Shown in pieces: positions 1,861-48,893 of a stretch of DNA of 49,048 bases. Position numbers and translations under genes: made by a program. The notes beneath the pieces were generated by a model. It did no database searches, was not told where the DNA came from, and was given only the letters and a program-made list of their open reading frames with translations. Positions within the stretch are counted from its first letter, which is position 1. Each line of letters starts with the position of its first letter. This DNA comes from Selenomonas bovis DSM 23594 (GTDB taxonomy: Bacteria; Bacillota; Negativicutes; Selenomonadales; Selenomonadaceae), in contig NZ_KB908397.1 in NCBI RefSeq assembly GCF_000381005.1, positions 1 through 49,048 of the forward strand, written 5' to 3'.

Positions 1861-1972
1861 ATCGATTCATAAAACATATAAGAAAGATAGGAATGAGTTG
1901 CAGGTCATTCGACAGCGAAAGCCTGAGACGTCCGTCGTTTATTTGTGTACGACGGGTGTCTTGGGCTTTTTT
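1861..1972 (+). promoter_or_regulatory. Sulfur-operon attenuator leader RNA, copy 1
   Basis: The leader carries AAAACATAT (1871-1879) and a compact hairpin at 1901-1925. The hairpin has outer stem CAGG/CCUG, an asymmetric internal loop (UCA on the 5' side, AG on the 3' side), inner stem UUCG/CGAA and loop ACAG. Twenty-four nucleotides (1902-1925) are identical to 44909-44932 in front of the second sulfur operon. The last five bases of the hairpin (GCCTG, 1921-1925) are also the start of the terminator stem, so hairpin and terminator exclude each other. That is the layout of an antitermination switch, with either a small ligand or an RNA-binding protein. The ligand is not known from sequence. 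Confidence 0.7.
1921..1972 (+). terminator. Conditional intrinsic terminator in the sulfate operon leader
   Basis: GCCTGAGAC (1921-1929) pairs with GTCTTGGGC (1958-1966) using two G-U pairs. An inner stem CCGTCGT/ACGACGG lies within it, and six T residues follow (1967-1972). It ends 31 nt before the sbp start codon, so read-through must be regulated for the operon to be expressed. Confidence 0.75.
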
Positions 1973-2003
1973 GTTCCTGTTTTTGCGGAAAGGAGCGATC
2001 GGG

Positions 2004-3029
2004 ATGAAAAAGGCGAAGTTTTTGGCGGCTGCGGCGGGACTTTTCTTGTTGGCAGGGGTGTTCACGGGCTGCGGCAGTGATGCGGAGGAGTCGGCGGAAG
2101 GCAAGGAACTGCTCAATGTCTCGTATGATCCGACGCGTGAGCTCTATCAAGAGTTCAATGCGGCGTTCTCGGAGAAATGGCAGGCGGAGACGGGAGAGCA
2201 GGTGAATTTCAAGCAGTCGCACGGCGGCTCGGGCAAGCAGGCGCGGGCGGTGCGCGAGGGCTTGGAGGCGGATGTCGTGACGCTCGCGCTCGCCTACGAT
2301 GTTGATGAGATTGCCGCGGAAGGACTCATCGACAAGGATTGGATGGAGAAGTTCCCCGACCATTCGGCGCCGTATACGTCGACGATCGTGTTCCTTGTGC
2401 GCAAGGGGAATCCGAAGCAGATCAAGGACTGGGACGATCTCGTGCGCGAGGATGTCTCCGTCGTGACGCCGAATCCGAAGACGTCGGGCGGCGCGCGCTG
2501 GAACTATCTCGCGGCCTGGGCGTACGCGAGTGAGAAGACGGGCGGCGATGAGGCGCAGACGAAGGCGTTCATGAAACAGCTCTTCTCGCGCGTCGTGGCG
2601 CTCGACTCGGGGGCGCGCGGTGCGACGACCTCGTTCGTGCAGCGCGGTCAGGGCGATGTCCTCATTGCCTGGGAGAACGAGGCGCTGCTCTCGGTCAAGG
2701 ACGCGCCGGACAAATATGAGATCGTCACGCCGTCGCTGAGCATCCTCGCGGAGCCGTCGGTGGCGGTCGTGGATGATGTCGTGGACCGGAAGGGGACGCG
2801 CAAGCTCGCGGAGGCCTATATCAAGTATCTGTATTCGCCGGAGGGGCAGGAAATCGCGGCAAAGCATTTTTACCGGCCGCGCAACGCGGAGGTTGCGGCG
2901 GCCTATCAGTCGCAGTTCCCAAAGCTGCGCCTCGTGACGATTGATGAGGCGTTCGGCGGCTGGACGAAGGCGCAGGCGGAGCATTTCGCGGATGGCGGTA
3001 CGTTCGACCAGATTTACGAGAAGCAATAG
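2004..3029 (+). CDS. sbp: Sulfate/thiosulfate ABC transporter substrate-binding lipoprotein
   Basis: This is the extracytoplasmic binding protein that delivers sulfate to CysTWA. The start at 2004 is chosen because GGAAAGGAG lies 8 nt upstream and the product begins with a lipoprotein signal (MKK, hydrophobic core, FTGC lipobox with C23). The longer upstream frame would run through the leader terminator. After the signal come [17 protein letters not shown] and [15 protein letters not shown], both characteristic of the Sbp/CysP family. Its 341 residues are normal. It is the first gene of the operon and is separated from the permease genes by a strong hairpin (3077-3102). sbp and cysP are hard to tell apart from sequence alone. 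Confidence 0.92.
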
Positions 3030-3076
3030 GGCTGCCCGCTGGGCGGCAGGGCGCGGCATGGGGCCGCGTTTTCTGG

Positions 3077-3102
3077 GGAAGCGCTGGCGGAACAGCGCTT
3101 CC
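3077..3102 (+). other. Intercistronic hairpin between sbp and cysT
   Basis: GGAAGCGCTG and CAGCGCTTCC form a perfect 10-bp stem with loop GCGGAA. No T-run follows, so it is not a full terminator. Such hairpins after the binding-protein gene often stabilise its mRNA end and lower expression of the permease genes; that role is inferred. Confidence 0.6.
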
Positions 3103-3120
3103 ATGAGTGAGGTGTTCTTC

Positions 3121-3945
3121 ATGCGGGCTGCGGCTCACGTCATTCCGGGCTACCGGTTCACGCTCGGTATCACGTTTTTCTATCTGTCCATGATCCTCCT
3201 GATCCCCCTGGCGGCGTTCCTGCTCTACGCGAGCGGCATGGGGGTGGGGAAGTTCCTCGCGGTCGCGACGGAGCTGCGCGTCGTCCACGCGTATCTCGTG
3301 AGCTTCGGTACGTCGCTGGTGGCGGCGCTCGTGAATGCGGTGTTCGGCCTGCTGCTCGCGTGGGTGCTCGTGCGGTATGATTTCCCCGGCAAGCGACTGC
3401 TCGACGGGCTCATCGACCTGCCGTTCGCGCTGCCGACGGCGGTCGCGGGCATCGCGCTCACGACGCTCTACGCGGAGAATGGCTGGCTTGGGCAGTTCTT
3501 CTACGCGGCGGGGATTCCCTCGGCGTTTTCCGTTCTCGGCATCACGATTGCGCTGGTGTTCGTGGGGATTCCTTTCGTGGCGCGCAGCGTGCAGCCCGTG
3601 CTCGAGGGGCTCGATCCGCAGCTCGAGGAGGCGGCGGAGATGCTCGGCGCGAGCCGGTGGCTGACGTTTCGCCGCGTGGTGTTTCCCGAGCTGCTGTCGC
3701 CGCTGCTCACGGGGTTCGCGCTCGCGTTCGCGCGCGGTATCGGCGAGTATGGCAGCGTGGTGTTCATCGCGGGCAACCTGCCCTATGAGACGGAGATCGC
3801 GCCGCTGCTCATCATGGCGAAGCTCGAGTCGTTCGATTATCCGTCGGCGGCGGCCATCGCCATCGTGATGATGGCCGCGTCGTTTCTCGTGCTCCTGGCG
3901 CTCAATGGTTATCAGCGCTGGCGCATGCACCATCAGGGGGTGTGA
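3121..3945 (+). CDS. cysT: Sulfate ABC transporter permease CysT
   Basis: This is one of the two inner-membrane permeases of the sulfate importer. About six hydrophobic segments are visible. The cytoplasmic coupling loop reads EEAAEMLGASRWLTFRRVVFPEL, split here as EEAAEMLGAS and WLTFRRVVFPEL, the EAA motif of the CysT/CysW family. I start it at ATG 3121, with GAGGTG placed 7 nt upstream, giving 274 residues. An in-frame ATG at 3103 sits in the hairpin arm and has no ribosome site. The frame opens much further upstream, but that would overlap sbp. cysW follows with its start within 3 nt of this stop. Confidence 0.92.
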   Translation: MRAAAHVIPGYRFTLGITFFYLSMILLIPLAAFLLYASGMGVGKFLAVATELRVVHAYLVSFGTSLVAALVNAVFGLLLAWVLVRYDFPGKRLLDGLIDLPFALPTAVAGIALTTLYAENGWLGQFFYAAGIPSAFSVLGITIALVFVGIPFVARSVQPVLEGLDPQLEEAAEMLGASRWLTFRRVVFPELLSPLLTGFALAFARGIGEYGSVVFIAGNLPYETEIAPLLIMAKLESFDYPSAAAIAIVMMAASFLVLLALNGYQRWRMHHQGV

Positions 3946-3947
3946 GG

Positions 3948-4772
3948 ATGAAAAAGGAAAAAGGCCTGGGCGCCTGGCTGCTCATCGCGCTTGCCGCGCT
4001 GTTCCTCTGCGTGATGCTCGTGCTGCCGCTCGTGCTTGTCGTGCATGAGGCGCTCGCGCGCGGTGCGGCGGCGTATCTTTCGGCCGTCGCGGAGCCGTTC
4101 GCGGTCAAGGCACTGCAGCTCACGCTCCTCGCGACGGCGGTCGCGGTGGGTGCGAATACGCTGTTCGGCCTCGCGTCAGCCTGGCTGCTCACAAAGCATG
4201 ATTTCCGCGGCAAGGCGCTGCTCGGCTCCCTCATCGATCTGCCGTTCGCGATCTCGCCTGTGGTCGCGGGCCTGTTCTTCGTGATGCTGTTCGGCCGCAT
4301 GAGCCCGCTCTATCCGCTGCTGCGCGCGGAGCACATTCAGATTCTCTTCGCCGTGCCGGCCATCGTGCTCGCGACGGTGTTCGTGACGTTTCCTTTCATC
4401 ACGCGCGAGCTCGTACCGGTCATGGAGAGCCAGGGGCGCAGCGAGGAGGAGGCGGCGACGACGCTTGGCGCGAGCGGCTGGCAGATGTTCTTCCATGTGA
4501 CGCTGCCGAATATCAAGTGGGCGCTGCTTTATGGCGTGATTCTCTGCACGGCGCGCGCGATGGGAGAGTTCGGCGCGGTCTCGGTCGTCTCGGGCCATAT
4601 CCGCGGCAAGACGAATACGCTGCCGCTGCACATCGAGATTCTCTACAATGAATACAATTTCACGGCAGCCTTTGCCGTGGCGTCGCTGCTCGTCCTGCTG
4701 GCCGTCGTGATCCTCGTGCTCAGGAATATCGTGGAGTGGCGTGCAAAAAGGGGGATGCATCATGCCCATTGA
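3948..4772 (+). CDS. cysW: Sulfate ABC transporter permease CysW
   Basis: The second permease subunit has 274 residues and about six membrane segments. Its EAA-type loop (EEEAATTLGASGWQMFFHVT, then LPNIKW) is typical of CysW. GARAMGEFGAVSV-like sequence (ARAMGEFGAVSVVSG) is the family signature near the C-terminus. ATG 3948 is preceded by GGGGGTG; a GTG at 3942, overlapping the cysT stop, is the alternative start. It overlaps cysA by 11 nt, so translation is probably coupled. Confidence 0.92.
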   Translation: MKKEKGLGAWLLIALAALFLCVMLVLPLVLVVHEALARGAAAYLSAVAEPFAVKALQLTLLATAVAVGANTLFGLASAWLLTKHDFRGKALLGSLIDLPFAISPVVAGLFFVMLFGRMSPLYPLLRAEHIQILFAVPAIVLATVFVTFPFITRELVPVMESQGRSEEEAATTLGASGWQMFFHVTLPNIKWALLYGVILCTARAMGEFGAVSVVSGHIRGKTNTLPLHIEILYNEYNFTAAFAVASLLVLLAVVILVLRNIVEWRAKRGMHHAH

Positions 4773-5832
4773 GGTGGAGCTTCGTCATATTGAGAAGCAT
4801 TACGGTTCGTTCCAGGCATCACGCGATGTGAGCTTTACGGCGGAGCGCGGCAGGCTCATCGGCCTGCTTGGTCCGTCGGGCAGCGGCAAGACGACCATCC
4901 TGCGCATGATCGCGGGGTTGGAGACGCCGGATCGAGGGGATATCTTCATCGGCGGTCGTCGCGTGAATGACCTCGCGCCGGGAAAGCGCGGCATCGGCTT
5001 CGTCTTCCAGAACTACGCGCTGTTCCGGCACATGACGGTGCGTGAGAACATCGCGTTCGGCCTGAAGATCCAGGAGGTGCCGCAGGCAAAGCGCCGAACG
5101 CGCGTCGATGAGCTGCTGGAGCTCATCGGCCTGACGAGCTTCGGCGCGCGGTATCCGATGCAGCTCTCCGGCGGGCAGCGCCAGCGCGTCGCGTTCGCAC
5201 GGGCGCTCGCGCCGGAGCCTGAGCTGCTGCTGCTCGATGAGCCGTTTGCCGCCATCGACGCGAAGGTGCGCAAGGAGCTGCGGAGCTGGCTGCGGCGGAC
5301 AATCCACAGGCTCGGCATCACGAGCATCTTCGTCACGCATGACCAGGAGGAGGCTGTCGAGGTCGCGGATGACATCATCATCACGAACCGCGGCCATATC
5401 GAGCAGGTCGGCACGCCGGTCGCCATCTACCAGTCGCCGCGCACGCCGTTCGTCGCGGATTTCATCGGCGAGTCGGTGCATGTGCCGGATTATACGATTT
5501 TCAAGGGCTTCGACGGGGACGAGGGCACGGCGGAGCACACGGGCATCATCCGTCCGGAGTTCCTCGAGATCGGCGCGGACGCCGACGAGATGCGCCTGCC
5601 GCTCGCGTCGGAGGACGGAACAGTGCGCGGCGTCTACTTCCGCGGCGACAGCCTGCAGGTCGATGTCGAGGTCAAGGGACAGCTCCTGCACGGGCGGCGC
5701 AGCCTAGAGAAGCGGCCCCTCCGGGAGGGGGACGCGGCCAAGGTGTTCATCCACCGCATCTACAGCTTCGCGGACGGCGGCACGCGCATTCTCGAGAATG
5801 CGGCGAAGCGTCAGGATTCCGTGGTGATTTGA
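4762..5832 (+). CDS. cysA: Sulfate/thiosulfate import ATP-binding protein CysA
   Basis: This 356-residue ATPase energises CysT/CysW. The Walker A motif is GPSGSGKT at 37-44. The ABC signature is LSGGQRQR, Walker B is ELLLLDEPFAAID, and the switch histidine lies in VTHDQEEAVEVAD. The C-terminal 100 residues form a TOBE-like regulatory region, as in E. coli CysA. The ATG at 4762 follows AAGGGGG, and the upstream GTG of the same frame lies inside cysW. It is the last transporter gene and is followed after 1 nt by the APS reductase genes, which ties import to reduction. Confidence 0.94.
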   Translation: MPIEVELRHIEKHYGSFQASRDVSFTAERGRLIGLLGPSGSGKTTILRMIAGLETPDRGDIFIGGRRVNDLAPGKRGIGFVFQNYALFRHMTVRENIAFGLKIQEVPQAKRRTRVDELLELIGLTSFGARYPMQLSGGQRQRVAFARALAPEPELLLLDEPFAAIDAKVRKELRSWLRRTIHRLGITSIFVTHDQEEAVEVADDIIITNRGHIEQVGTPVAIYQSPRTPFVADFIGESVHVPDYTIFKGFDGDEGTAEHTGIIRPEFLEIGADADEMRLPLASEDGTVRGVYFRGDSLQVDVEVKGQLLHGRRSLEKRPLREGDAAKVFIHRIYSFADGGTRILENAAKRQDSVVI

Positions 5833-5833
5833 G

Positions 5834-7537
5834 GTGAAGGATTTGAAACTGAAGGAAGAAACATCAGATATCCTCGTCATCGGCGGCGGTGCTGCCGGCT
5901 GCTACGCAGCGCTCACGCTCGCGGCGGAGCGGCCGGAACGCTCGGTCCTGCTCGTCGACAAAGCGGGCATCGAGCGCAGCGGCTGCCTCGCGGCCGGCGT
6001 CAACGCACTCAACGCGTATATCACGCCCGGGCATACGCCGGAGGACTACGCGGACTACGCGGCGGCGGACGCGGCGGGCATCGTGCGTGACGATCTGTTG
6101 CTCACGATGTCTGAGCGGCTCAACGAGGTCACGCGCCGCATGGAGGAGCTCGGGCTCGTTATCCTGAAGGATGCGGACGGGAACTACGTCTCGCGCGGCT
6201 GGCGCAACATCAAGATCAACGGGGAGAATATCAAGCCGCTGCTCGCGGCCGCTGTGCGGCGCGCGAAGAATGTCCGCGTGCTGGAGCATGTCGATGTCGT
6301 GAATCTCTTGAAAGCGGCGGACGGGCGCATCGCCGGCGCCTGGGGCATCGACCTGCGCGAGGACGCGGTCTGCTATTTCCGTGCGCGCGCCGTCATCTGT
6401 GCGACGGGCGGCGCGGCGGGCCTTTACCGGTCCAACCATCCGGGCGCGGCGCGCCATACGATGTGGTATTCGCCGTTCAATACGGGCGCTGGCTACGCGA
6501 TGGGCCTGCGCGCGGGCGCGGAGATGACGTCGCTGGAGATGCGGTTCATCGCGCTGCGGTGCAAGGACACGATCGCGCCGACGGGCACGATCGCGCAGGG
6601 CGTGGGCGCGCCGCAGGTCAACGCGCGCGGCGAGAAGTACCAGGCGGGCTACGGCAACACGACGTCGGAGCGCCTCTACGCGGTCGTGAGCGAAAATCTC
6701 GCCGGACGCGGCCCTTGTTACCTCGAGACGCAGGGCATCACGGCGGCGCAGGAGCAGTCCCTCGAGCGCGCGTATCTCAACATGGCGCCCGCGCAGACGA
6801 TGCGCTGGCGTGAGACGGGGCTCGGCCCGCGTACGGCGAACGTCGAGGTCGAGGGCACGGAGCCCTATATCGTCGGCGGCCATACGGCGAGCGGCTACTG
6901 GGTGGACACAACGCGGCAGACGACGGTGCCGGGTCTCTTCGCCGCGGGCGATGTCGCGGGCGGCTGCCCGCAGAAATACGTGACGGGCGCGTTTGCCGAG
7001 GGGGCCTATGCCGCCGAGGGGGCTGCCTGCTATGCGGCGGCGCAGGAGGTGCTCCCCGTGCCGACAGAGGCTGCGGCGGCGGTGCGCGCGCGCGTCGAGC
7101 GCCTGCGCGAGCAGCCGGCCGCGGCGCCGCTCTTCACCGTCGACGCGCTCGAGGAGGCCATGCAGCAGGTCATGGACGAGGAGGCGGGCGGCATCACAGC
7201 CGGCTACCGCTATACGGAGCGCCAGCTCGCTGCGGCGGCGCATCACATCGCGCGCCTCACGCGGCTCAGTGAGGGGCTGCGCGCAGAGGACGCCTACGGA
7301 CTGCTGAAGATCTTCGAGCTGCGCGAGCGGCTGCTCGTCTGCCGCGTGCTCATCGAGCACATGAAAGCGCGGCGCGAGACGCGCTGGCACTGCTTCGCGG
7401 AGAACCTAGACCATCCGGCGCGGGAGGCGCGCTATGAGAAATATGTCAATTCCAGGCTGAAGGACGGCAGGGTGGAGATCATCCTGCGCGATCTGGTGAA
7501 ACGGGGGCAGCACTATGAGCATACGCTTGGAAACTGA
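5834..7537 (+). CDS. aprA: Adenylylsulfate (APS) reductase alpha-subunit-like flavoprotein
   Basis: This FAD protein of the fumarate reductase/AprA superfamily probably reduces APS to sulfite and AMP in the cytoplasm. The dinucleotide site is [15 protein letters not shown] near residue 13. Segments that match AprA active-site regions are [16 protein letters not shown] (Trp), [17 protein letters not shown] (Arg) and [13 protein letters not shown] (His). The C-terminal FAD segment is [12 protein letters not shown] 5834 opens the frame; TTG 5843, with AGGTG 6 nt upstream, is an equally good start and would remove three residues. The context between cysTWA and cysDN argues for an assimilatory role, unlike the dissimilatory enzyme of sulfate reducers. 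A fumarate-reductase-like function is the main alternative. Confidence 0.82.
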
Positions 7538-7826
7538 GAAATGCATCGGCTGCGGCCGCTGCGCGGACGTCTGTCCCGGCAATCTCCTCGTCATCGAGGC
7601 GGGCCGGGCCCGCCTGCGCGACGCGCGCGACTGCTGGGGCTGCACGGCCTGCGTCAAGGCGTGCCCGCGCGCGGCGATCTTCTACACGCTCGAGGCGTCG
7701 CTCGGCGGCGCGGGCGGCAGGCTCTACGCCGAGAACAGCCGCGACACGCTCACCTGGGTGCTGCGCCTCGCGGACGGCGAGGAACAGCGCATCGCGGTCA
7801 ATAAGAAGCAGGCGAATGATTACTGA
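7515..7826 (+). CDS. aprB: APS reductase beta-subunit-like ferredoxin, two 4Fe-4S clusters
   Basis: This 103-residue protein has two cluster motifs: C10, C13, C16, C20 and C40, C43, C46, C50, each ending in CP. A non-cluster C-terminal tail of about 50 residues follows. It overlaps the end of the flavoprotein gene by 23 nt, so the two are almost certainly translated together and form a complex in which this subunit passes electrons to the FAD. Dissimilatory AprB is about 150 residues with a longer tail, so this is a short version. The electron donor is not visible here. Confidence 0.82.
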
Positions 7827-7846
7827 ACAACTGAGGAATCGTAAGC

Positions 7847-7880
7847 TCCGACAGCGGGACACAGATTTTGCGCTGCCGGA
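7847..7880 (+). other. Hairpin in the aprB-cysD gap
   Basis: TCCG and CAGCG (7847-7856) pair with CGCTG and CGGA (7871-7880) around one mismatch. It lies in a 121-bp gap inside the sulfur operon with no T-run or promoter that I can see. Its role is unknown; it may adjust cysDN expression. Confidence 0.35.
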
Positions 7881-7947
7881 CACGAAAGACACGCGCGGGC
7901 CGCACGGGAGCGGACGCGCGCAGACTACCATCAGGGAGAGAGAAGAT

Positions 7948-8856
7948 ATGGGAAATTTATCGCATCTCGATGCGCTTGAGGCAGAGGCCATCTACATCAT
8001 CCGCGAGGTGGCGGCTGAGGCGGAGAAGCCGGTGATGCTCTATTCCATCGGCAAGGACAGCACGGTCATGATGCACCTCGCGCTCAAGGCGTTCTATCCG
8101 GAGAAACCGCCGTTTCCGTTCCTGCACATCAACACGACGTGGAAGTTCCACGAGATGATCGCGTTCCGTGACGCGCAGGCGAAAAAGTACGGTCTCACGA
8201 TGCTCGAGTACAAGAACGAGGAGGGCATCCGCGAGGGCATCAACCCCTTCGACCACGGTGCGTCCTACACCGATATCATGAAGACGCAGGCGCTCAAGCA
8301 GGCGTTGACGAAGTACGGTTTCACGGCGGCGTTCGGCGGCGGGCGGCGCGACGAGGAGAAATCCCGCGCGAAGGAACGCGTGTTCTCGTTCCGCAACGCG
8401 GCGCAGGCCTGGGATCCGAAGAACCAGCGCCCGGAGATGTGGAAGCTCTACAACGCGGAGCTCCACAAGGGGGAGAGCATCCGCGTATTTCCGCTCTCGA
8501 ATTGGACGGAGAAGGATATCTGGCAGTACATCCGCCGCGAGCAGCTCGAAATCGTCTCGCTCTATTTTGCCAAGGAACGTCCCTGCATCGAGCGCGACGG
8601 CAACATCATCATGGTGGATGATGACCGCATCGTCAAGAAGCTGCACCTGCGGCCCGAGGACATCCAGCAGAGGAAGATCAGGTTCCGTACGCTCGGCTGC
8701 TATCCGCTCACGGGCGGTGTCGAGTCGGACGCCGATACGCTGGACGCCATCGTCGAGGAGACGCTCGGCGCCGTGGAGTCCGAGCGCACGAGCCGCGTCA
8801 TCGACCATGAGGGAGCCGGCAGCATGGAGCGCCGGAAACGGGAGGGCTATTTCTGA
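7948..8856 (+). CDS. cysD: Sulfate adenylyltransferase subunit 2 CysD
   Basis: CysD makes APS from ATP and sulfate together with the GTPase CysN. It belongs to the PP-loop ATP pyrophosphatase family, and the loop is SIGKDS at 33-38. [14 protein letters not shown]-like sequence ([20 protein letters not shown]) near the C-terminus is the CysD signature. The start at 7948 has AGGGAGAG upstream and gives 302 residues, the E. coli length. The longer frame from 7816 adds a low-quality arginine-rich leader and is rejected. The stop overlaps the cysN start by one base. Confidence 0.95.
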
Positions 8857-10496
8857 TGAACGATTTACTGAAATTTATCACCTGCGGCAGCGTGGACGAC
8901 GGCAAGTCCACGCTCATCGGCCATCTGCTCTACGATGCGAAGCTCATCTATGCCGATCAGAAAGAGGCGCTGCTGCTCGACTCGAAGGTCGGCAGCCGCG
9001 GCGGCGCCATCGACTACTCCCTGCTGCTCGACGGCCTGCTCGCGGAGCGCGAGCAGGGCATCACGATCGATGTCGCCTACCGCTATTTCACGACGGACCG
9101 GCGCAGCTTCATCTGCGCTGACACGCCGGGGCATGAGGAGTATACGCGCAACATGGCCTGCGGCGCGTCATTCGCGGATCTCGCCATCATCCTCGTGGAC
9201 GCTTCGAAGGGCGTGCTCACACAGACGCGCCGCCACGCGCGCATCTGCGCGCTCATGGGCATCCGCTATTTCGTCTTCGCCGTGAACAAGATGGACCTCA
9301 TCGGCTACGACGAGGCGCAGTTCCGCGCCATCGAGGTGGAGATCGGCGCGCTCCGGCAGGAGCTCGGGCTCGAGAGCGTCCGCATCATCCCGGTTTCAGC
9401 GACGGAGGGCGACAATATCACGAAGCGCTCTGACCGCATGCCATGGTATGACGGTGAGGTCCTCCAGGAATATCTCGAGACGGTCGACGTCACGGCGGGG
9501 GCCGCCGCGGAGAAAGGGTTCTACCTCCCCGTGCAGCGCGTCTGCCGTCCGAACCAGTCGTTCCGCGGTTTCGCGGGGCAGATTGAGAGCGGTAGCGTCG
9601 CCGTCGGCGATACGGTGACGGCCCTGCCGAGCGGCGAGCAGGCGGAGGTCACGCATATCTTTGTCGCGGATCACGAGGAGAAGCGTGCCAGCGTCGGCCA
9701 GCCCGTCACGCTGCAGCTCAGCCGCGAGGTCGATGTCTCGCGCGGCTGCGTGCTCGAGCGGGAGAGTGGACTAAGCCTCGCTGACGCGTTCGAGGCGGAG
9801 ATTCTCTGGATGGACGATGTGCCGCTCACTGTGGGGAAGAATTTCCTCATAAAGCTCGGCACGAAGAAGATCCCCGGCATCCTTTCCGGCATCGCGTACC
9901 GTACCGACATCCATACGGGCGAGCACGAGCCGGCGGAGCGTCTCGAAAAGAACGAGATCGCGCATGTGACGATTGCCGTTACGGAGCCCATCGTGCTCGG
10001 ATTGTTCGATGAGCACCGCACGCAGGGTGAGCTCCTGCTCATCGACCGCATCACGAACAACACGGCGGCCTGCGGCGTCGTGCGCAGCATCGGCGCCGCG
10101 GAGGACGCGGCGCGTGTCTACGCGACGCCCGCGATGCGCAGCGCGCTCAACTGGCAGAAGCCGCTCGTCACTGTGTTCCGTCCCGGCGCGGACGGCACGA
10201 CGGCGCGCGCCGTCGCGGAGGCGGAATACCGCCTCGTGCAGAGCGGCCGTCACACGTACCTCTACGCGCCGGCGGCGGGCGAGGACTACGCGCGCACGGC
10301 AGCGCACCTCGCGGCGGCGGGCGTCATCGTGCTGCTCGTCCTCGGCGCTGACGCGCCGCGCCTCGACCTCCCGGAGGCAAGAGAGTGGAGCGCGCTCGCG
10401 CCCGCAGGCGAGCAGACGGCGCAGGCCATTGCCGCGCGGCTGCTCCAGGAGACACTGCTCGATGCCGCGTTCGCGCCGGGGCAGTGGGTGATTTGA
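8856..10496 (+). CDS. cysN: Sulfate adenylyltransferase subunit 1 CysN with a degenerate CysC-like tail
   Basis: Residues 1 to about 425 are a complete CysN GTPase, with G1 loop GSVDDGKST (11-19), DTPGHEEYTRNM and NKMD, followed by the beta-barrel domains. The remaining 120 residues (about 428-546) resemble the APS kinase domain of CysNC fusions. NWQKPLVTVF aligns with the QKPAVLWFTG entry strand, SGRHTYLY (463-470) with GRHTYLLDGD, and AAGVIVLLVLGAD (487-499) with DAGLIVLVAFISP. The P-loop GLSGSGKS is replaced by RPGADGTT (442-449), and the part holding the DGDNVR site is shortened. Kinase activity is therefore very unlikely. This makes sense beside an APS-using reductase. The stop codon abuts a small palindromic repeat. 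Confidence 0.93.
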   Translation: MNDLLKFITCGSVDDGKSTLIGHLLYDAKLIYADQKEALLLDSKVGSRGGAIDYSLLLDGLLAEREQGITIDVAYRYFTTDRRSFICADTPGHEEYTRNMACGASFADLAIILVDASKGVLTQTRRHARICALMGIRYFVFAVNKMDLIGYDEAQFRAIEVEIGALRQELGLESVRIIPVSATEGDNITKRSDRMPWYDGEVLQEYLETVDVTAGAAAEKGFYLPVQRVCRPNQSFRGFAGQIESGSVAVGDTVTALPSGEQAEVTHIFVADHEEKRASVGQPVTLQLSREVDVSRGCVLERESGLSLADAFEAEILWMDDVPLTVGKNFLIKLGTKKIPGILSGIAYRTDIHTGEHEPAERLEKNEIAHVTIAVTEPIVLGLFDEHRTQGELLLIDRITNNTAACGVVRSIGAAEDAARVYATPAMRSALNWQKPLVTVFRPGADGTTARAVAEAEYRLVQSGRHTYLYAPAAGEDYARTAAHLAAAGVIVLLVLGADAPRLDLPEAREWSALAPAGEQTAQAIAARLLQETLLDAAFAPGQWVI

Positions 10497-44096: not shown

Positions 44097-44829
44097 GTTG
44101 CGGCAGGTGTTTCCTGCGTCGCGTGAGGCAGAGCTCTCCCGCGTCCTCTGTGTCACGAACCGCCATCTCGTCGCAGACGGCGCGTCTCTGCCGGAGGCGG
44201 CTGCTGGCAGCGCTGGCGGGCGAGAGCTCGCGGACGGGGCGGCGGAAGACGTCGCTCACACTGCAGGCGCGGAGGACTGGACACCGTTCCTGCGGCGTCT
44301 GGAGATGGTCGTGCGCGCGCGGCCGCGCGCCGTCATCCTGCGTGAGAAAGATCTGCCGCCCGTTGCCTATGAGCGGCTCGCGCAGGAGGTGCTCGCCCTC
44401 TGCCGTGCGGCCGGTGTGCCGTGCCTCCTTCACACGCACGCGGCACTCGCGCTGCGGCTTGCGGCCGCGGGCCTGCATCTGCCGCTCGCGCTGCTCCGGG
44501 AGCTTCCGCTCGCGCAGCGGCAGCGCTTCGCTTTGCTCGGGGCGTCGTGCCACTCCGTTGAGGATGTGCGCGCGGCGGAGCGGCTCGGCTGCAGCTATGT
44601 GACGCTCGGCCACATCTACGCGACCGCGTGTAAGCCGGGCCTGCCGCCGCGCGGGCGGGATCTCTTGCGGCGCGCCTGCGCGGCGGCGCGGATTCCCGTC
44701 TATGCCATCGGCGGTATCACGCCTGCGCGCCTCGCGGAGGTGTGCTCGGACGGGGCGGCGGGCGCTTGCGTGATGAGCGGACTCATGCGCGGCTCTGACT
44801 GGATTCCTGGAATTGAGAAAATCTGTTGA
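44089..44829 (+). CDS. thiE: ThiE/TenI-family thiamine phosphate synthase
   Basis: This TIM-barrel protein of 246 residues joins the pyrimidine and thiazole halves if it is ThiE. VLCVTNRHL, VILREKDLP, GASCHSVEDVRAAERLG and the pyrophosphate loop YVTLGHIYATACKPGLPPRG match the family; VYAIGGITP ends it. It carries an insert near residues 35-65 not usual for ThiE. The start ATG 44089 overlaps thiH and has no clear ribosome site, so coupling is likely. A TenI-like role is the alternative. The next promoter (44826) overlaps its stop. Confidence 0.8.
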   Translation: MSELRQVFPASREAELSRVLCVTNRHLVADGASLPEAAAGSAGGRELADGAAEDVAHTAGAEDWTPFLRRLEMVVRARPRAVILREKDLPPVAYERLAQEVLALCRAAGVPCLLHTHAALALRLAAAGLHLPLALLRELPLAQRQRFALLGASCHSVEDVRAAERLGCSYVTLGHIYATACKPGLPPRGRDLLRRACAAARIPVYAIGGITPARLAEVCSDGAAGACVMSGLMRGSDWIPGIEKIC

Positions 44830-44854
44830 CATTTCCCGGCGGCTGCTCTATAAT
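44826..44854 (+). promoter_or_regulatory. Consensus sigma-A promoter of the second sulfur operon
   Basis: TTGACA (44826-44831), a 17-bp spacer and TATAAT (44849-44854) are a perfect match to consensus. The spacing to the downstream AAAACATAT block is the same as in the sulfate operon. Confidence 0.92.
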
Positions 44855-44860
44855 GTCAGT

Positions 44861-44991
44861 AATGTTTTAGAAAACATATTGTTATTATATGATTGAGCGG
44901 TCCGCCGTAGGTCATTCGACAGCGAAAGCCTGCGGGAAGCGTGGGGAGCGTGGCAGAAGTGTCTGCTCCTCGGCTTTCCGCGGGCTTTTTT
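44861..44991 (+). promoter_or_regulatory. Sulfur-operon attenuator leader RNA, copy 2
   Basis: This copy contains ATGTTTT/AAAACAT as a palindrome (44862-44877), with AAAACATAT at 44871-44879. The same compact hairpin as copy 1 lies at 44908-44932, with 24 identical nucleotides; the closing C-G becomes U-G. GCCTG (44928-44932) is shared with the terminator stem. Outside these blocks the two leaders differ, which argues for selection on the motif rather than a recent duplication. Confidence 0.7.
44928..44991 (+). terminator. Conditional intrinsic terminator of the second sulfur operon
   Basis: GCCTGCGGGAAGC (44928-44940) pairs with GCTTTCCGCGGGC (44973-44985) over 13 bp including G-U pairs, followed by six T residues (44986-44991). 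It lies 90 nt before the first start codon. Confidence 0.85.
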
Positions 44992-45081
44992 GCGCAGCGG
45001 GGCGAGAGAGAATACGCCGCAGCCGGTGGCCGCGACGCGCCTTGCCGCCCTGTCGGCAGAGGATAGCGAGGAGGATATAAG

Positions 45082-45291
45082 ATGAAACTGACTGTCAATG
45101 GAGAACCACTGGAAATCGAGAAACCCATCAATGTCAAGGAACTGCTCGTCGACGCCAAGGCCGAGCAGCCGGAATATGTGACCGTAGAGCTCAACGGGGA
45201 GTTCGTCGATCACTCCGGCTTTGAGTCGACGCTCGTGAAGGACGGCGACACGGTGGAGTTCCTGTATTTCATGGGAGGCGGTGCGAGATGA
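45082..45291 (+). CDS. hcyS: HcyS-like sulfur carrier protein with a C-terminal Ala-Arg extension
   Basis: This 69-residue ubiquitin-like protein of the ThiS/MoaD family ends DTVEFLYFMGGGAR. The two residues after the glycines (A68, R69) must be removed before adenylation, and a JAMM protease two genes downstream can do this. The same logic is known from the protein-thiocarboxylate route to homocysteine in Wolinella succinogenes (HcyS, HcyD, HcyF, MetY). GAGGAGG lies upstream of the ATG. It overlaps the E1 gene by 4 nt. Confidence 0.85.
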   Translation: MKLTVNGEPLEIEKPINVKELLVDAKAEQPEYVTVELNGEFVDHSGFESTLVKDGDTVEFLYFMGGGAR

Positions 45292-46106
45292 GCAGCCTGA
45301 CGAACGAACAGCTCGAACGGTATTCCCGCCATATCATCCTCCAGCAGGTCGGCGGCAGGGGGCAGGAGAAGATCCTCGGCAGCAAGGTGCTTGTCATCGG
45401 TACGGGCGGCCTCGGCGCGCCGGCCGCGATGTATCTCGCCGCGGCCGGCGTCGGCACCATCGGCCTCGTGGACTTCGATGTCGTCGACCTCTCGAACCTC
45501 CAGCGCCAGATTATCCACCAGACGGCGGATGTCGGCAAGCCGAAGGTCGATTCCGGACGGGAGACCATCGAGGCGATGAATCCGGATGTCGATGTGCATA
45601 CGTACAATGAGCTCGTGACCTCGGCGAACATCCGCGACATCATCCGCGATCAGGACTACGACTTCATCATCGACGGCACGGACAACTTTCCCGCGAAGTT
45701 CCTCATCAACGACGCTTGCGTCTTTGAGAAGAAGCCCTTCGTCCACGCGGGCATCATCCGCTTCCAGGGACAGCTCATGACGTATGTGCCGGGTGCGGGG
45801 CCGTGCTACCGCTGCGTGTTCAAGACGATGCCGCCGAAGGATGCCGTGCCGACGTGCCGGCAGGCGGGTGTCCTCGGCGTCATGGGCGGCATCATCGGCA
45901 CGCTGCAGGCGACGGAGGCGCTCAAGTACATCCTCGGCGTCGGCGAGCTGCTCACGGGATATCTGCTGACGTACGACGCACTCACGATGAAGTTCCGCAA
46001 GGTGAAGCTCCCGCGCGATCCACACTGCGCGATCTGCGGCGAACATCCGACGATTACGGAACTCATCGATTACGAGCAGCCGGCCTGCGATCTCAGAAAG
46101 CATTGA
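45288..46106 (+). CDS. hcyF: ThiF/MoeB/HcyF-like sulfur-carrier adenylyltransferase (E1-like)
   Basis: The protein activates the carrier C-terminus as an acyl-adenylate. The ATP-binding Rossmann loop is GTGGLG (38-43), followed by LVDFDVVDLSNLQRQI. Two CxxC pairs (GPCYRC and HCAIC) bind zinc, and the C-terminal half has GVLGVMGGIIGTLQATEALK. Its 272 residues match stand-alone ThiF/MoeB types without a rhodanese domain. It is the only such enzyme in the window and may serve both HcyS and ThiS. Confidence 0.9.
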   Translation: MSSLTNEQLERYSRHIILQQVGGRGQEKILGSKVLVIGTGGLGAPAAMYLAAAGVGTIGLVDFDVVDLSNLQRQIIHQTADVGKPKVDSGRETIEAMNPDVDVHTYNELVTSANIRDIIRDQDYDFIIDGTDNFPAKFLINDACVFEKKPFVHAGIIRFQGQLMTYVPGAGPCYRCVFKTMPPKDAVPTCRQAGVLGVMGGIIGTLQATEALKYILGVGELLTGYLLTYDALTMKFRKVKLPRDPHCAICGEHPTITELIDYEQPACDLRKH

Positions 46107-46116
46107 GGAGGGCGCT

Positions 46117-46530
46117 ATGGTCATCGAATTGAAACTCGCGGACTATCTGGAGATGGTCCGCCACGCCCGCGCGCTCGCGCCCATCGAGGACTGCGGCCTT
46201 CTGGGCGGCACAGTCGCAGACGGCGTCAAGACCGTGGAGAAGGTGTATTACCTCACGAACACCGACCACAGCGAGGAGCATTTCTCCCTCGACCCGAAGG
46301 AGCAGTTCGCGGCGGTGAAGGAGATGCGGGCGAATGGCTGGCAGCTGCTCGGCAACTGGCACAGCCATCCCGCGAGCCCCTCGCGCCCGAGCGAGGAGGA
46401 CAAGAGGCTCGCGTTTGACAGCAAGGCGAGCTATTTCATCCTCTCACTGCATGGCGGCGAGCCCGTGTTGAACAGCTTCCATGTGAGCAGGGAAAAGAAA
46501 GTCACGAAAGAGGATCTGAGAATCAGGTAA
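46117..46530 (+). CDS. hcyD: JAMM/MPN+ metalloprotease (HcyD-like)
   Basis: This 137-residue zinc isopeptidase domain has the JAMM residues E24 (PIEDCGLLGG), H82, H84 (WHSHPASPSRPS) and D95. In sulfur-carrier clusters this protease trims residues after Gly-Gly; here the expected substrate is the GGGAR end of the carrier encoded at 45082. GAGGAGG precedes the ATG by 6 nt. Confidence 0.88.
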   Translation: MVIELKLADYLEMVRHARALAPIEDCGLLGGTVADGVKTVEKVYYLTNTDHSEEHFSLDPKEQFAAVKEMRANGWQLLGNWHSHPASPSRPSEEDKRLAFDSKASYFILSLHGGEPVLNSFHVSREKKVTKEDLRIR

Positions 46531-46570
46531 AGAGCGGGGCCGGGGACTCCGGCCACAGGAGGAGAGCAAG

Positions 46571-47431
46571 ATGGCAGTAGATTACAAGGCACTCAAGAAG
46601 GGCGGCCTCATGCGCCAGCGGCAGAAGGATTGTTTCTCGATGCGCCTGAAATCCGTCGGCGGTCATTTCACCGCGGGGCAGCTCGCGACCGTGCAGCAGG
46701 TGGCAGAGAAGTACGGCAAAGGATATGTACATCTCACGAGCCGGCAGGGCATCGAGATCCCGTACATCAAGCTGCAGGAGATCGACGAGGTCAAGGAAGT
46801 CCTCAAGAAGGGCGGCGTCGAGGTCGGCGTCTGCGGGCCGCGCGTGCGCACCATCACGGCCTGCCAGGGGGCGGCGACCTGTCCGTCAGGCCTCATCGAC
46901 ACGGTGAAGCTCGCCAATGAGTTCGACCGCCGCTACGGCGGGAAGGAACTGCCGCACAAGTTCAAGTTCGGTTTTACGGGCTGCCACAACAACTGCCTCA
47001 AGGCGGAGGAAAACGACCTCGGCGTCAAGGGCGGCGTGCTGCCGAAATGGGAGGCGGCGAGCTGCATGTACTGCGGCGTCTGTGAGGCTGTCTGCCCGGA
47101 GAAAGCCATCTGCGTGGACAAGGAAAAGAAGGCGCTCGCCTTTGACCAAGAGTCTTGCGTCTACTGCGGCAAATGCATCAAGAGCTGCCCGACGGATGCA
47201 TGGACGGGAGAGAATGGCTTCGTCATTTCCTTCGGCGGGCTCTACGGCAACCGCATCGCCATCGGCCGCCATTTCCTGCCCATCGTCTTCGATGAGGCCA
47301 AGGTCTACGAGATCGTCGACGTCACGCTGAAGTTCTTCGAGGAGAATGCGAAGCCGAGCGAGCGCTTCGCGAACTGCCTCGACCGTGTGGGCTGGGATGT
47401 ATTCGAGAAGAGAGTGGAGGAAGTCTTATGA
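46571..47431 (+). CDS. Small siroheme-type sulfite reductase with ferredoxin domain
   Basis: The 286-residue protein has a compact nitrite/sulfite reductase fold. Siroheme-4Fe4S ligands are C98 and C104 (C-x5-C) and C138 and C142 (C-x3-C). A two-cluster ferredoxin insert follows (C165, C168, C171, C175 and C196, C199, C202, C206). It is half the size of NirA/CysI, like the AsrC and small assimilatory anaerobic enzymes. Placed between the carrier-processing genes and MetY, it should supply sulfide from the sulfite made by the APS reductase. Nitrite as a substrate is less likely from context. Confidence 0.85.
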   Translation: MAVDYKALKKGGLMRQRQKDCFSMRLKSVGGHFTAGQLATVQQVAEKYGKGYVHLTSRQGIEIPYIKLQEIDEVKEVLKKGGVEVGVCGPRVRTITACQGAATCPSGLIDTVKLANEFDRRYGGKELPHKFKFGFTGCHNNCLKAEENDLGVKGGVLPKWEAASCMYCGVCEAVCPEKAICVDKEKKALAFDQESCVYCGKCIKSCPTDAWTGENGFVISFGGLYGNRIAIGRHFLPIVFDEAKVYEIVDVTLKFFEENAKPSERFANCLDRVGWDVFEKRVEEVL

Positions 47432-47676
47432 GTGAGAAGCACACAGATGCCGCCATCGACATCACGGATGTCGTCTGCCCTATCACGTTCGTCAAGGTGA
47501 AGGTCGCGCTCGAGGATCTCGCGGACGGGCAGACGCTCGCCGTGCACCTGAATGACGGCGAGCCCATCCAGAACGTGCCGCGCAGCCTCAAGGACGAGGG
47601 ACACAAGGTGCTCTCCGTTGACCAAAATGGGGACGGCACGTATGACCTCGTCGTGGAAAAGGGTGGTCTCGCATGA
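47428..47676 (+). CDS. TusA-like sulfur-transfer protein
   Basis: The 82-residue protein has the TusA/SirA/YeeD fold signature (DITDVVCPITFVKVKVALEDL, in parts), with C17 as the expected persulfide cysteine. The usual CPxP is CPIT here. It overlaps both neighbours by 4 nt. In this operon it may pass sulfane sulfur or sulfide to the carrier protein; the direction is inference. Confidence 0.82.
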   Translation: MSEKHTDAAIDITDVVCPITFVKVKVALEDLADGQTLAVHLNDGEPIQNVPRSLKDEGHKVLSVDQNGDGTYDLVVEKGGLA

Positions 47677-48893
47677 GATTCACCACGCGGCTCCTGCACG
47701 AGGCGTTCGCGCCGGACGCGGCGACGGGGGCGACGACGCAGCCGCTCTACCAGACCTCGGCGTTCTATCAGCCGACGGCGGAGGAGATGGCGCGCGTCTT
47801 CGCGGGACGCAAGCCGGGCTTCGTCTACACGCGCGTGAACAATCCGACCATCGCGCGCTTCGAGCAGCGTGTGAACGCGCTCGAGGGCGGCGTCGGCGCC
47901 GTGGCCTGCGCGTCCGGCATGGCGGCTGTATCGCACGCCGTGCTCAACATTCTCTCGCAGGGCGATGAGATCCTCGCATCGGGCGGACTCTACGGCGGCA
48001 CGAGCTCGCTCTTTCGCGATTTCGCGAGCTACGGCATCGGCGTGCGCTACGCGGCGGGCGACAGCGTGGCGGATTTCCGCGCGGCGCTCACGAAGCGCAC
48101 GCGGCTCATCTACATCGAGACCATCGGCAATCCGACGCTCGACGTCGTTGACATCGCGGCGCTCTCTGAGCTCGCGCACGCGCACGGCGTACCGCTCTTC
48201 GTCGACAATACGGTGACGACGCCGTACCTCTGCCAGCCGCTCGCGCACGGCGCCGATGTCGTCATCCACTCGACGTCCAAGGCGCTCAACGGCAACGGCA
48301 ACTCCATCGGCGGCATCGTCGTCTCGGGCGGCAAGTTCCGCTGGGATGCGGCGCGTTTCCCGAAGCTCGGGGAGTATCCGTTCGGGCCTATGAGCTATCT
48401 CGTTCGCCTGCGTATGCGCATGGTGACGGACTACGGCGGCTGCATGGCGCCGTTCAACGCGTATCTCACGGGCATCGGGCTTGATACGCTCGCGCTGCGG
48501 CTCGACCGGATCACGTCGAGTGCATTCGCGCTCGCTGCGTTTTTCGCGGCGCGCGGGGAGCGCGTGAATTATCCAGGTCTGCCGGAACATCCCTCGCATG
48601 CACTCGCGGCGCGCCAGTTCGGCGGGCGCTACGGCGCGATGCTCACGCTGCGCCTCGGCACACGGGAGCGCGCGTTCCGTTTCATCGATGCGCTGCACTA
48701 CGCGCTCAATGTCTCGAACATCGGCGACGCGCGCACGCTCGTGATCCATCCGGCTTCGACAATCTTCCTCCACGCGAGCGAGGAGGAAAAGGCGAATGCC
48801 GGCGTCACGGACGATCTCGTGCGAATCAATGTGGGATTGGAAGACATCGAGGATCTGCAGGAGGATTTCGCGCAGGCGCTCGACGCGCGCTGA
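47673..48893 (+). CDS. metY: O-acetylhomoserine sulfhydrylase-type PLP enzyme
   Basis: This Cys/Met-metabolism PLP enzyme has 406 residues. FVYTRVNNPTIARFEQRVNALEGG (in parts), CASGMAAV and HSTSKALNGNG, with K203 as the PLP lysine, define the family. It most likely makes homocysteine from an activated homoserine, using the carrier thiocarboxylate or free sulfide. The NNPT and GNG sequences fit MetY better than cystathionine gamma-synthase, but methionine gamma-lyase cannot be excluded by eye. It is the last gene of the operon. Confidence 0.88.
   Translation: MRFTTRLLHEAFAPDAATGATTQPLYQTSAFYQPTAEEMARVFAGRKPGFVYTRVNNPTIARFEQRVNALEGGVGAVACASGMAAVSHAVLNILSQGDEILASGGLYGGTSSLFRDFASYGIGVRYAAGDSVADFRAALTKRTRLIYIETIGNPTLDVVDIAALSELAHAHGVPLFVDNTVTTPYLCQPLAHGADVVIHSTSKALNGNGNSIGGIVVSGGKFRWDAARFPKLGEYPFGPMSYLVRLRMRMVTDYGGCMAPFNAYLTGIGLDTLALRLDRITSSAFALAAFFAARGERVNYPGLPEHPSHALAARQFGGRYGAMLTLRLGTRERAFRFIDALHYALNVSNIGDARTLVIHPASTIFLHASEEEKANAGVTDDLVRINVGLEDIEDLQEDFAQALDAR

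Follow-up and report, generated by a model that had tools for sequence, protein, structure and literature searches.

Proteins of the BglG/LicT/SacY family use a small protein domain to hold a short, imperfect RNA hairpin, the RAT, against a transcription terminator. The ANTAR antiterminators, such as EutV and NasR, likewise set RNA hairpin structure against a terminator, their target consisting of two hairpins with six-base loops. Terminator control of Bacillota sulfur genes is also exerted by the SAM riboswitch (S-box, RF00162). The HMP-PP riboswitch (thiS motif), in those parts of its description that bear on its architecture and setting, is a compact RNA with the aptamer embedded in the terminator; the genes it accompanies concern HET-P, thiS-type genes lie close to it, and in some cases it forms a tandem with a second riboswitch located in front of it (PMC6478431). 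In bacilli, an attenuator leader was described 5' of an alkanesulfonate transporter operon, together with a common element that a sulfonate ABC operon shares with an unknown gene; the sections of that paper dealing with these leaders name no partner protein (Naville and Gautheret, 2010; PMC2965389).

The DNA considered here (the window) is a stretch of 49,048 nucleotides from Selenomonas bovis DSM 23594, in which the leaders of two sulfur operons carry the same small hairpin. This hairpin belongs to an RNA class that overlaps terminators, precedes sulfur genes and is associated, in bacterial genomes and in viral contigs, with yezD, the gene for a DUF2292 protein. It is like the BglG/LicT/SacY targets in that hairpin and terminator overlap and have bases in common, and unlike them in its single internal loop, its sulfur targets and its proposed DUF2292 partner; it is unlike the ANTAR targets in being one hairpin with a loop of 4-5 bases. 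The HMP-PP riboswitch, as far as the cited parts of its description go, is similarly terminator-linked, compact and near thiS-type genes, whereas the present hairpin lies 5' of its terminator, has five bases in common with it and precedes sulfur genes (PMC6478431). The SAM riboswitch occurs in some of the same leaders, but there it is a separate upstream element with its own terminator, and the hairpin is no part of RF00162. The sulfonate leaders of bacilli, judged by their description in the text, may be the same element (PMC2965389). Within the parts of the open-licence literature covered, no description of the element or of YezD/DUF2292 was found. A hairpin held by a protein against a terminator is a known kind of control; what appears to be new is this class of RNA and this family of proteins.

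Two leader hairpins in the Selenomonas bovis window

The 24 bases of AGGTCATTCGACAGCGAAAGCCTG occur exactly at 1902-1925 and 44909-44932, bearing out a sequence-only reading of the window, which had claimed this identity for two leaders 43 kb apart; directly 5' of the repeat, position 1901 has C and position 44908 has T. With up to three mismatches allowed, no further copy was found in the window or in the rest of the 2.69-Mb genome, and 100 dinucleotide shuffles yielded none. Folded alone, both copies (1901-1925 and 44908-44932, + strand; repeat search and folding) adopt the antiterminator-type hairpin that had been drawn from the letters, with an outer stem (C/U)AGG/CCUG, an internal loop UCA/AG, an inner stem UUCG/CGAA and a loop ACAG. 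The folding energy of the hairpin with a few flanking bases is -11.6 kcal/mol for copy 1 and -16.2 kcal/mol for copy 2. Once downstream sequence is included, the minimum free energy structure is in each case the terminator (-41.4 kcal/mol, z -6.4, for 1890-1975; -57.1 kcal/mol, z -5.1, for 44895-44995). By folding, with coordinates taken from the sequence, the two intrinsic terminator stem-loops extend over 1921-1966 and 44928-44985 and are followed by T tracts at 1967-1972 and 44986-44991, all on the + strand. GCCUG (GCCTG in the DNA, 1921-1925 and 44928-44932) is both the 3' end of the hairpin and the base of the terminator 5' arm; since these five bases are common to the two structures, hairpin and terminator exclude each other, as had been proposed. 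The stem sequences of the two terminators are not alike, also in agreement with the earlier reading. For the second operon, a probable promoter (TTGACA, 17 nt, TATAAT; + strand) can be read at 44826-44854.

As a separate observation, a AAAACATAT-like DNA motif lies at 1872-1882 and 44870-44880 of the window. It recurs 5' of Selenomonadaceae sulfur operons (L004, L008, L013, L016; L217-L223), is present both with and without hairpin and yezD, and is possibly a transcription factor binding site.

The domain content behind both hairpins is consistent with sulfur operons. Operon 1 (+ strand) begins with a sulfate-type ABC substrate-binding protein (SBP; 2004-3029), recognized by Pfam SBP_bac_11 on the longer frame 1893-3029, the start at 2004 having been picked from the ribosome-binding site. 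By Pfam, two ABC permeases and an ATPase (CysT/CysW/CysA-like) occupy 2941-5832, and FAD-binding, PAPS_reduct-domain and GTP_EFTU-domain proteins, with an 87-aa ORF, 5834-10496. We take the FAD-binding protein to be AprA-like and the PAPS_reduct-domain and GTP_EFTU-domain proteins to be CysD/CysN-like. The 87-aa ORF (7541-7804), which follows the FAD protein and precedes the PAPS_reduct-domain protein, had no Pfam match at 1e-3 and is perhaps a small subunit partnering the AprA-like protein. Operon 2 (+ strand, Pfam) starts with a ThiS-family sulfur carrier (45082-45291) and continues with ThiF-family, Prok-JAB, NIR_SIR and Cys_Met_Meta_PP genes (45288-48893).

At gathering score, Rfam 15 matched only a TPP riboswitch in the whole window and left the hairpins unmatched; no family reached the gathering threshold at the hairpin in 9 + 20 further loci or in L390, and permissive scans of both window leaders returned chance-like matches only. 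Known Rfam families, riboswitches included, were rejected for want of a gathering-score match, so the comparison suggested by the earlier reading brought up no characterized family at the hairpin. The TPP riboswitch itself (RF00059, 41584-41707, 58.8 bits) lies 5' of ThiG and other thiamine genes.

Antitermination of the LicT/SacY or ANTAR type would obey the same logic of a protein-held hairpin set against a terminator, and an ANTAR (PF03861) protein is encoded in 18 of 20 hairpin-positive genomes, the window genome included, these 20 having been picked from genomes in which hairpin and yezD are both present. Such a reader is nevertheless scarcely credible here. CAT_RBD (PF03123) was found neither in the window genome nor in 16 of the 20, on which ground LicT/SacY was rejected, and the Rfam bglG leader model, whose gathering score is 80, reached 14.4 bits at copy 1 and was unlisted at copy 2. 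Against ANTAR speak the absence of its protein from G068 and G640 and the misfit between paired six-base loops and a single hairpin with a loop of 4-5 bases. Of the earlier likening to RAT hairpins bound by LicT/SacY-type proteins, the binder must therefore be dropped, while the antitermination-type leader RNA is retained on the strength of the further copies and covarying stems described below.

Relatives of the hairpin and the genes behind them

With up to three mismatches, the 24-base repeat was matched in 12 of 189 Selenomonadaceae genomes, and a covariance model built from 12 hairpins (R1), applied to 380 Negativicutes genomes, had matches in 42 at E<=1e-3. Among the R1 matches the inner stem UUCG/CGAA also appears as UUCU/AGAA, UUUG/CAAA, UCCG/CGGA and UUAG/CUAA, and the outer stem AGG/CCU as GAG/CUC and GGC/GCC. 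What is constant across relatives is the U-N-A/AG internal loop, the 4-bp inner helix and the loop of 4-5 nt, with helix sequences that covary; among the unpaired positions, variation is absent or almost absent at only six. Weak R1 matches without a terminator (L069, L076, L082, L084, L086, L088, L095, L099 and others) were not counted as copies. In a collection of genome contigs, 34 of 41 loci lie in Selenomonadaceae, and the seven outside the family are taken as chance, about seven being expected by a hand estimate. The R1 search of Negativicutes, which the sequence-only reading had suggested, thus supplied further copies 5' of sulfur genes with covarying stems.

When geometry alone was scanned for (an outer helix of 3 bp, U-N-A, an inner helix of 4 bp, loop, AG), diverged forms came out next to yezD genes from other families, one example being GGCUGAUCAG-N5-CUGAAGGCC. 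Across 1.26 Mb of loci, many of them collected because they carry the element, 68 distinct hairpins overlapped a terminator, vs 4 in reversed sequence. In yezD regions, which were hand-picked by yezD matches after hairpins had already been seen in part, a 4-bp inner helix gave 46 hairpins in Negativicutes, 42 of them with a terminator, and 22 in other Bacillota, of which 17 had one. The corresponding counts, with terminator-linked hairpins in parentheses, were 10 (2) and 11 (5) for a 3-bp inner helix, 2 (1) and 1 (0) for a 5-bp inner helix, and 2 (0) and 1 (1) in the reversed-sequence control. A loop length of 4 or 5, U and A in the 5' strand of the internal loop and AG in its 3' strand were likewise enriched with terminators. 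Among 43 aligned hairpins, all seven of seven pairs have changes on both sides; because the aligned hairpins were found by requiring pairing, it is the geometry controls that carry weight over these pair counts. A chance origin of the hairpin is rejected by dinucleotide shuffles and reversed-sequence controls.

Both within Selenomonadaceae and outside the family, in other Negativicutes as well as further Bacillota, the element stands 5' of sulfur genes, and these many additional copies support the sulfur regulon proposed from the two window leaders. Targets in Selenomonadaceae include the sulfate-type SBP, the sulfur carrier operon, MetY and ABC transporter genes, the last presumably MetN/MetI-like; another is a two-repeat DUF2292 protein with MetY-like or sulfite-reductase genes behind it. 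Other Negativicutes have the element near MetY and ABC genes; in other Bacillota the targets, by translation, are cysH, Sat, AprA, SsuB/C, CysK, an SsuE-like gene and SBP. Named carriers are several Selenomonas species, Mitsuokella jalaludinii and Cytobacillus spongiae. The order in Cytobacillus spongiae is SAM riboswitch, yezD, hairpin-terminator, phosphoadenylyl-sulfate reductase (cysH), phosphate-type transporter, sat, cysC and nitrite/sulfite reductase. The hairpin of this species is missed by the geometric scan because its third outer pair is A-G; it came to light on reading the sequence and with a less strict pattern. At L177 (4832-5060) and L178 (5689-5920), the hairpin, with a second terminator, comes directly after a SAM riboswitch and that riboswitch's own terminator, and these are tandem two-input leaders.

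Some loci carry other genes. At L039, L042 and L051 an esterase-family gene (by Pfam Esterase at L042) that is not plainly sulfur-related lies behind the hairpin, and at L039 and L042 an ATP-grasp-like gene is found there as well. No clear gene was found behind hairpin and terminator at L025 and L043, both of genome G272; the two leaders are nearly identical, and the stretch is perhaps duplicated or mobile. In two other Bacillota genomes (L274, L288), hairpins lie 5' of genes resembling those of NifB-type radical SAM and nitrogenase-related proteins.

Association with YezD in genomes and viral contigs

YezD corresponds to DUF2292 (PF10055; Pfam gathering threshold 22 bits), against which the two-repeat Selenomonadaceae protein, YezD2, scores 32.5 and 68.7 bits and the copy of the window genome 31.5 bits. 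The predicted structure of YezD2 consists of two alpha-beta-beta repeats (mean pLDDT 83.7, pTM 0.75); a phage YezD was modelled poorly (mean pLDDT 58). In some families a pair of adjacent single-domain yezD genes takes the place of the two-repeat gene, suggesting that YezD may act as a dimer or pseudo-dimer by analogy with CAT domains, which form dimers. A PDB sequence search with YezD2 gave no match, and fold searches gave none at E<=0.001 (best Z 4.1) and no RNA-binding relative; the absence of CAT-type folds among the fold matches listed excludes nothing. The partners are small, with about 25 nt of RNA and about 55 residues per YezD repeat.

In the window genome (G000), a two-repeat YezD is encoded at G000:C26:26460-26795 (L144), and this partner was invisible to the sequence-only reading because contig C26 is not that of the window. 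No hairpin was found 5' of this yezD; a palindrome-like ATTATGATAT...ATATCATAAT lies upstream of it, and a divergent cystathionine-lyase-like gene adjoins. Elsewhere the element stands 5' of yezD itself (L004, L012). A hairpin with terminator is present in 43 of 76 yezD regions, 20 of them 0-400 nt behind yezD.

Hairpin and gene are strongly associated. Among the 380 Negativicutes genomes, an R1 match (E<=1e-3) and DUF2292 coincide in 39; 3 have just the hairpin, 104 have just yezD and 234 lack both (Fisher p 3e-15, phylogeny uncorrected). A model trained on Negativicutes hairpins only (R3) was applied to other Bacillota, where at E<=0.01 it matched 19 of 37 yezD-positive vs 1 of 123 yezD-negative genomes (Fisher 1.5e-13, phylogeny uncorrected), the 123 being all yezD-negative genomes of G380-G525 and the single match G455. 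The model R2 gave 19 yezD-positive vs 0 yezD-negative genomes in other Bacillota at E<=1e-3, and 29 vs 11 at E<=0.1, a comparison that is partly circular in that R2, unlike R3, contains hairpins from those genomes. Within Selenomonadaceae, the same SBP gene is present in 15 of 45 yezD-negative genomes, five of them of the window's genus, and none of the 14 readable SBP leaders has the hairpin. A terminator-linked hairpin was found in 22 of 25 SBP loci of yezD-positive genomes, the 25 having been preselected by R1 or the exact pattern.

The hairpin-positive genomes lacking a DUF2292 call can be considered individually. Of the three in Negativicutes, G078 has yezD in fragments (L027), G099 is a genome 70% complete, and the match in G019 (L069) has no visible terminator. 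Eight of the 11 R2-positive, yezD-negative genomes were examined, with G483, G624 and G661 left out. In G553 and G405 a DUF2292 protein lies directly 5' of the hairpin, at 22.4 and 23.7 bits (cut-off 22). G585 has a YezD-like ORF 0.8 kb upstream of the hairpin (E 2e-4 with an HMM of our own, no Pfam match), and G455 one about 100 nt upstream, recognized by eye only. The hairpin region of G579 is cut by a contig end, that of G561 contains no hairpin with terminator, and the geometric scan found none in the 2.6-2.8-kb loci of G530 and G581. The G585 locus looks like a prophage because a DNA-methylase-like ORF precedes the hairpin and a phage sigma-factor family gene follows it.

In the other direction, a hairpin match is missing in 104 of 143 yezD-positive Negativicutes with the narrow R1 model and in 18 of 37 yezD-positive genomes of other Bacillota with R3. 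Some of these are misses of the model, as at L271 and L282-L284, where the geometric scan recovered a hairpin; in others the absence may be real. These 18 genomes, and the fact that yezD is not always adjacent, might be taken to mean that YezD is a metabolic passenger, with a more general factor or RNA kinetics alone reading the hairpin. That account is very improbable, as the pair persists in G553 and G405, which at first seemed to be without yezD, and in viral contigs.

Scanning viral contigs with four patterns yielded 57 loci, near-identical ones being L346/L355 and L345/L351. Thirty-four have CCAG, CCGG or CUGG forms, 26 of these with a terminator call. A DUF2292-like ORF was found in the stretch examined in 13 of the 26 and not detected in the other 13, as against 0 of the 31 remaining loci, which comprise eight without a terminator call (0/8) and the GATCAG loci, which stood outside the terminator test. 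An alternative split into 23 real and 34 other loci, drawn after outputs had been seen and counting L358 as real without a terminator call, gives 13/23 vs 0/34. The ORF precedes the hairpin by 0-1.3 kb. Of 12 ORFs of this kind that were scanned, eight exceed the DUF2292 Pfam cut-off (L334, L338, L340, L345, L349, L352, L355, L389) and four fall under it (L335, L343, L347, L358). Behind the hairpin are terminase small and large subunits at L334, a sigma-like gene at L345 and a regulator gene at L349. Terminase (L353, L386), portal (L343) and head-tail (L335) genes follow it at loci where the YezD-like ORF was recognized by eye only. A PHROGs scan of nine genes behind phage or prophage hairpins matched seven, with no match for L333 and L347. 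In annotated phage records, tblastn with one phage and one cellular YezD found no match. The viral scan with GCTGATCAG gave 23 loci, 21 of which share one sequence except for one base; no YezD-like ORF was found at any of the 23 at E<0.01. The shared sequence, CTGCTGATCAGTGC(G/C)ACTGAAGGCAT, occurs in 21 viral contigs (among L360-L382) and is probably a conserved coding sequence unrelated to the hairpin. A sulfur role is not evident in the viral setting, yet the joint presence of hairpin and DUF2292 gene in these sequences is regarded as the best evidence for YezD as the reader.

This setting also bears on the alternative raised in the sequence-only reading, a very small riboswitch. On that account the hairpin itself would bind a sulfur metabolite, and yezD would be just one more gene of the same regulon. 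The position of the hairpin 5' of metabolic genes and its strongly conserved internal loop would suit an aptamer, and small terminator-linked aptamers exist, such as that of the HMP-PP (thiS) riboswitch in the portions of its description used here (PMC6478431). We consider a riboswitch decidedly unlikely nonetheless: merely six unpaired positions approach invariance, the hairpin tracks the presence and absence of yezD even among relatives that keep the same SBP gene, and in viral contigs it accompanies DUF2292 genes 5' of terminase or regulator genes.

Proposed mechanism and implications

Protein-dependent antitermination, in which YezD binds the hairpin and allows read-through into sulfur genes in response to a starvation signal, is in our view quite likely. 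The hairpin, composed of the outer helix, the U-N-A/AG loop, the 4-bp inner helix and an A-rich loop, would form first behind the polymerase. Without YezD, the stronger terminator would overtake it by taking its last five bases, and transcription would stop. If bound by YezD, in this genome a two-repeat protein encoded elsewhere, the hairpin would keep these five bases paired, and the polymerase would read through to the sulfur genes. We infer YezD as the binder, read-through as the outcome and sulfur starvation as the signal, the last being suggested because SAM riboswitches precede yezD in some loci (L177, L178, L390). Low SAM would there lead to more YezD, and hence to the opening of the sulfur operons.

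The association reveals a pair and not a direction, so YezD could also bind the hairpin and promote termination, or guard the mRNA or its translation. Action of this opposite or other-level kind is unlikely: hairpin and terminator share bases, and a factor that stabilizes the one should therefore block the other, while SAM riboswitches 5' of yezD, by which YezD would be made at low SAM, fit an activator of sulfur genes.

It is fairly likely that YezD/DUF2292 constitutes an unrecognized family of RNA-binding antiterminators that serves Bacillota sulfur regulons and phage late genes and has a hairpin code of its own, the proposed code being a loop of 4-5 bases and, separated from it by exactly 4 bp, a U-N-A/AG internal loop. 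If this is correct, a function would be provided for a widespread family annotated as an 'uncharacterised small protein', and the control of sulfate, sulfonate, cysteine and methionine genes in many Bacillota would be explained by a protein-RNA antitermination pair distinct from the BglG and ANTAR families. The two-input leaders would then combine a SAM riboswitch with a protein-read hairpin, and phages would use the same pair as a switch before late genes. So small an RNA, together with so small a protein, would also make a handy gene-control part.
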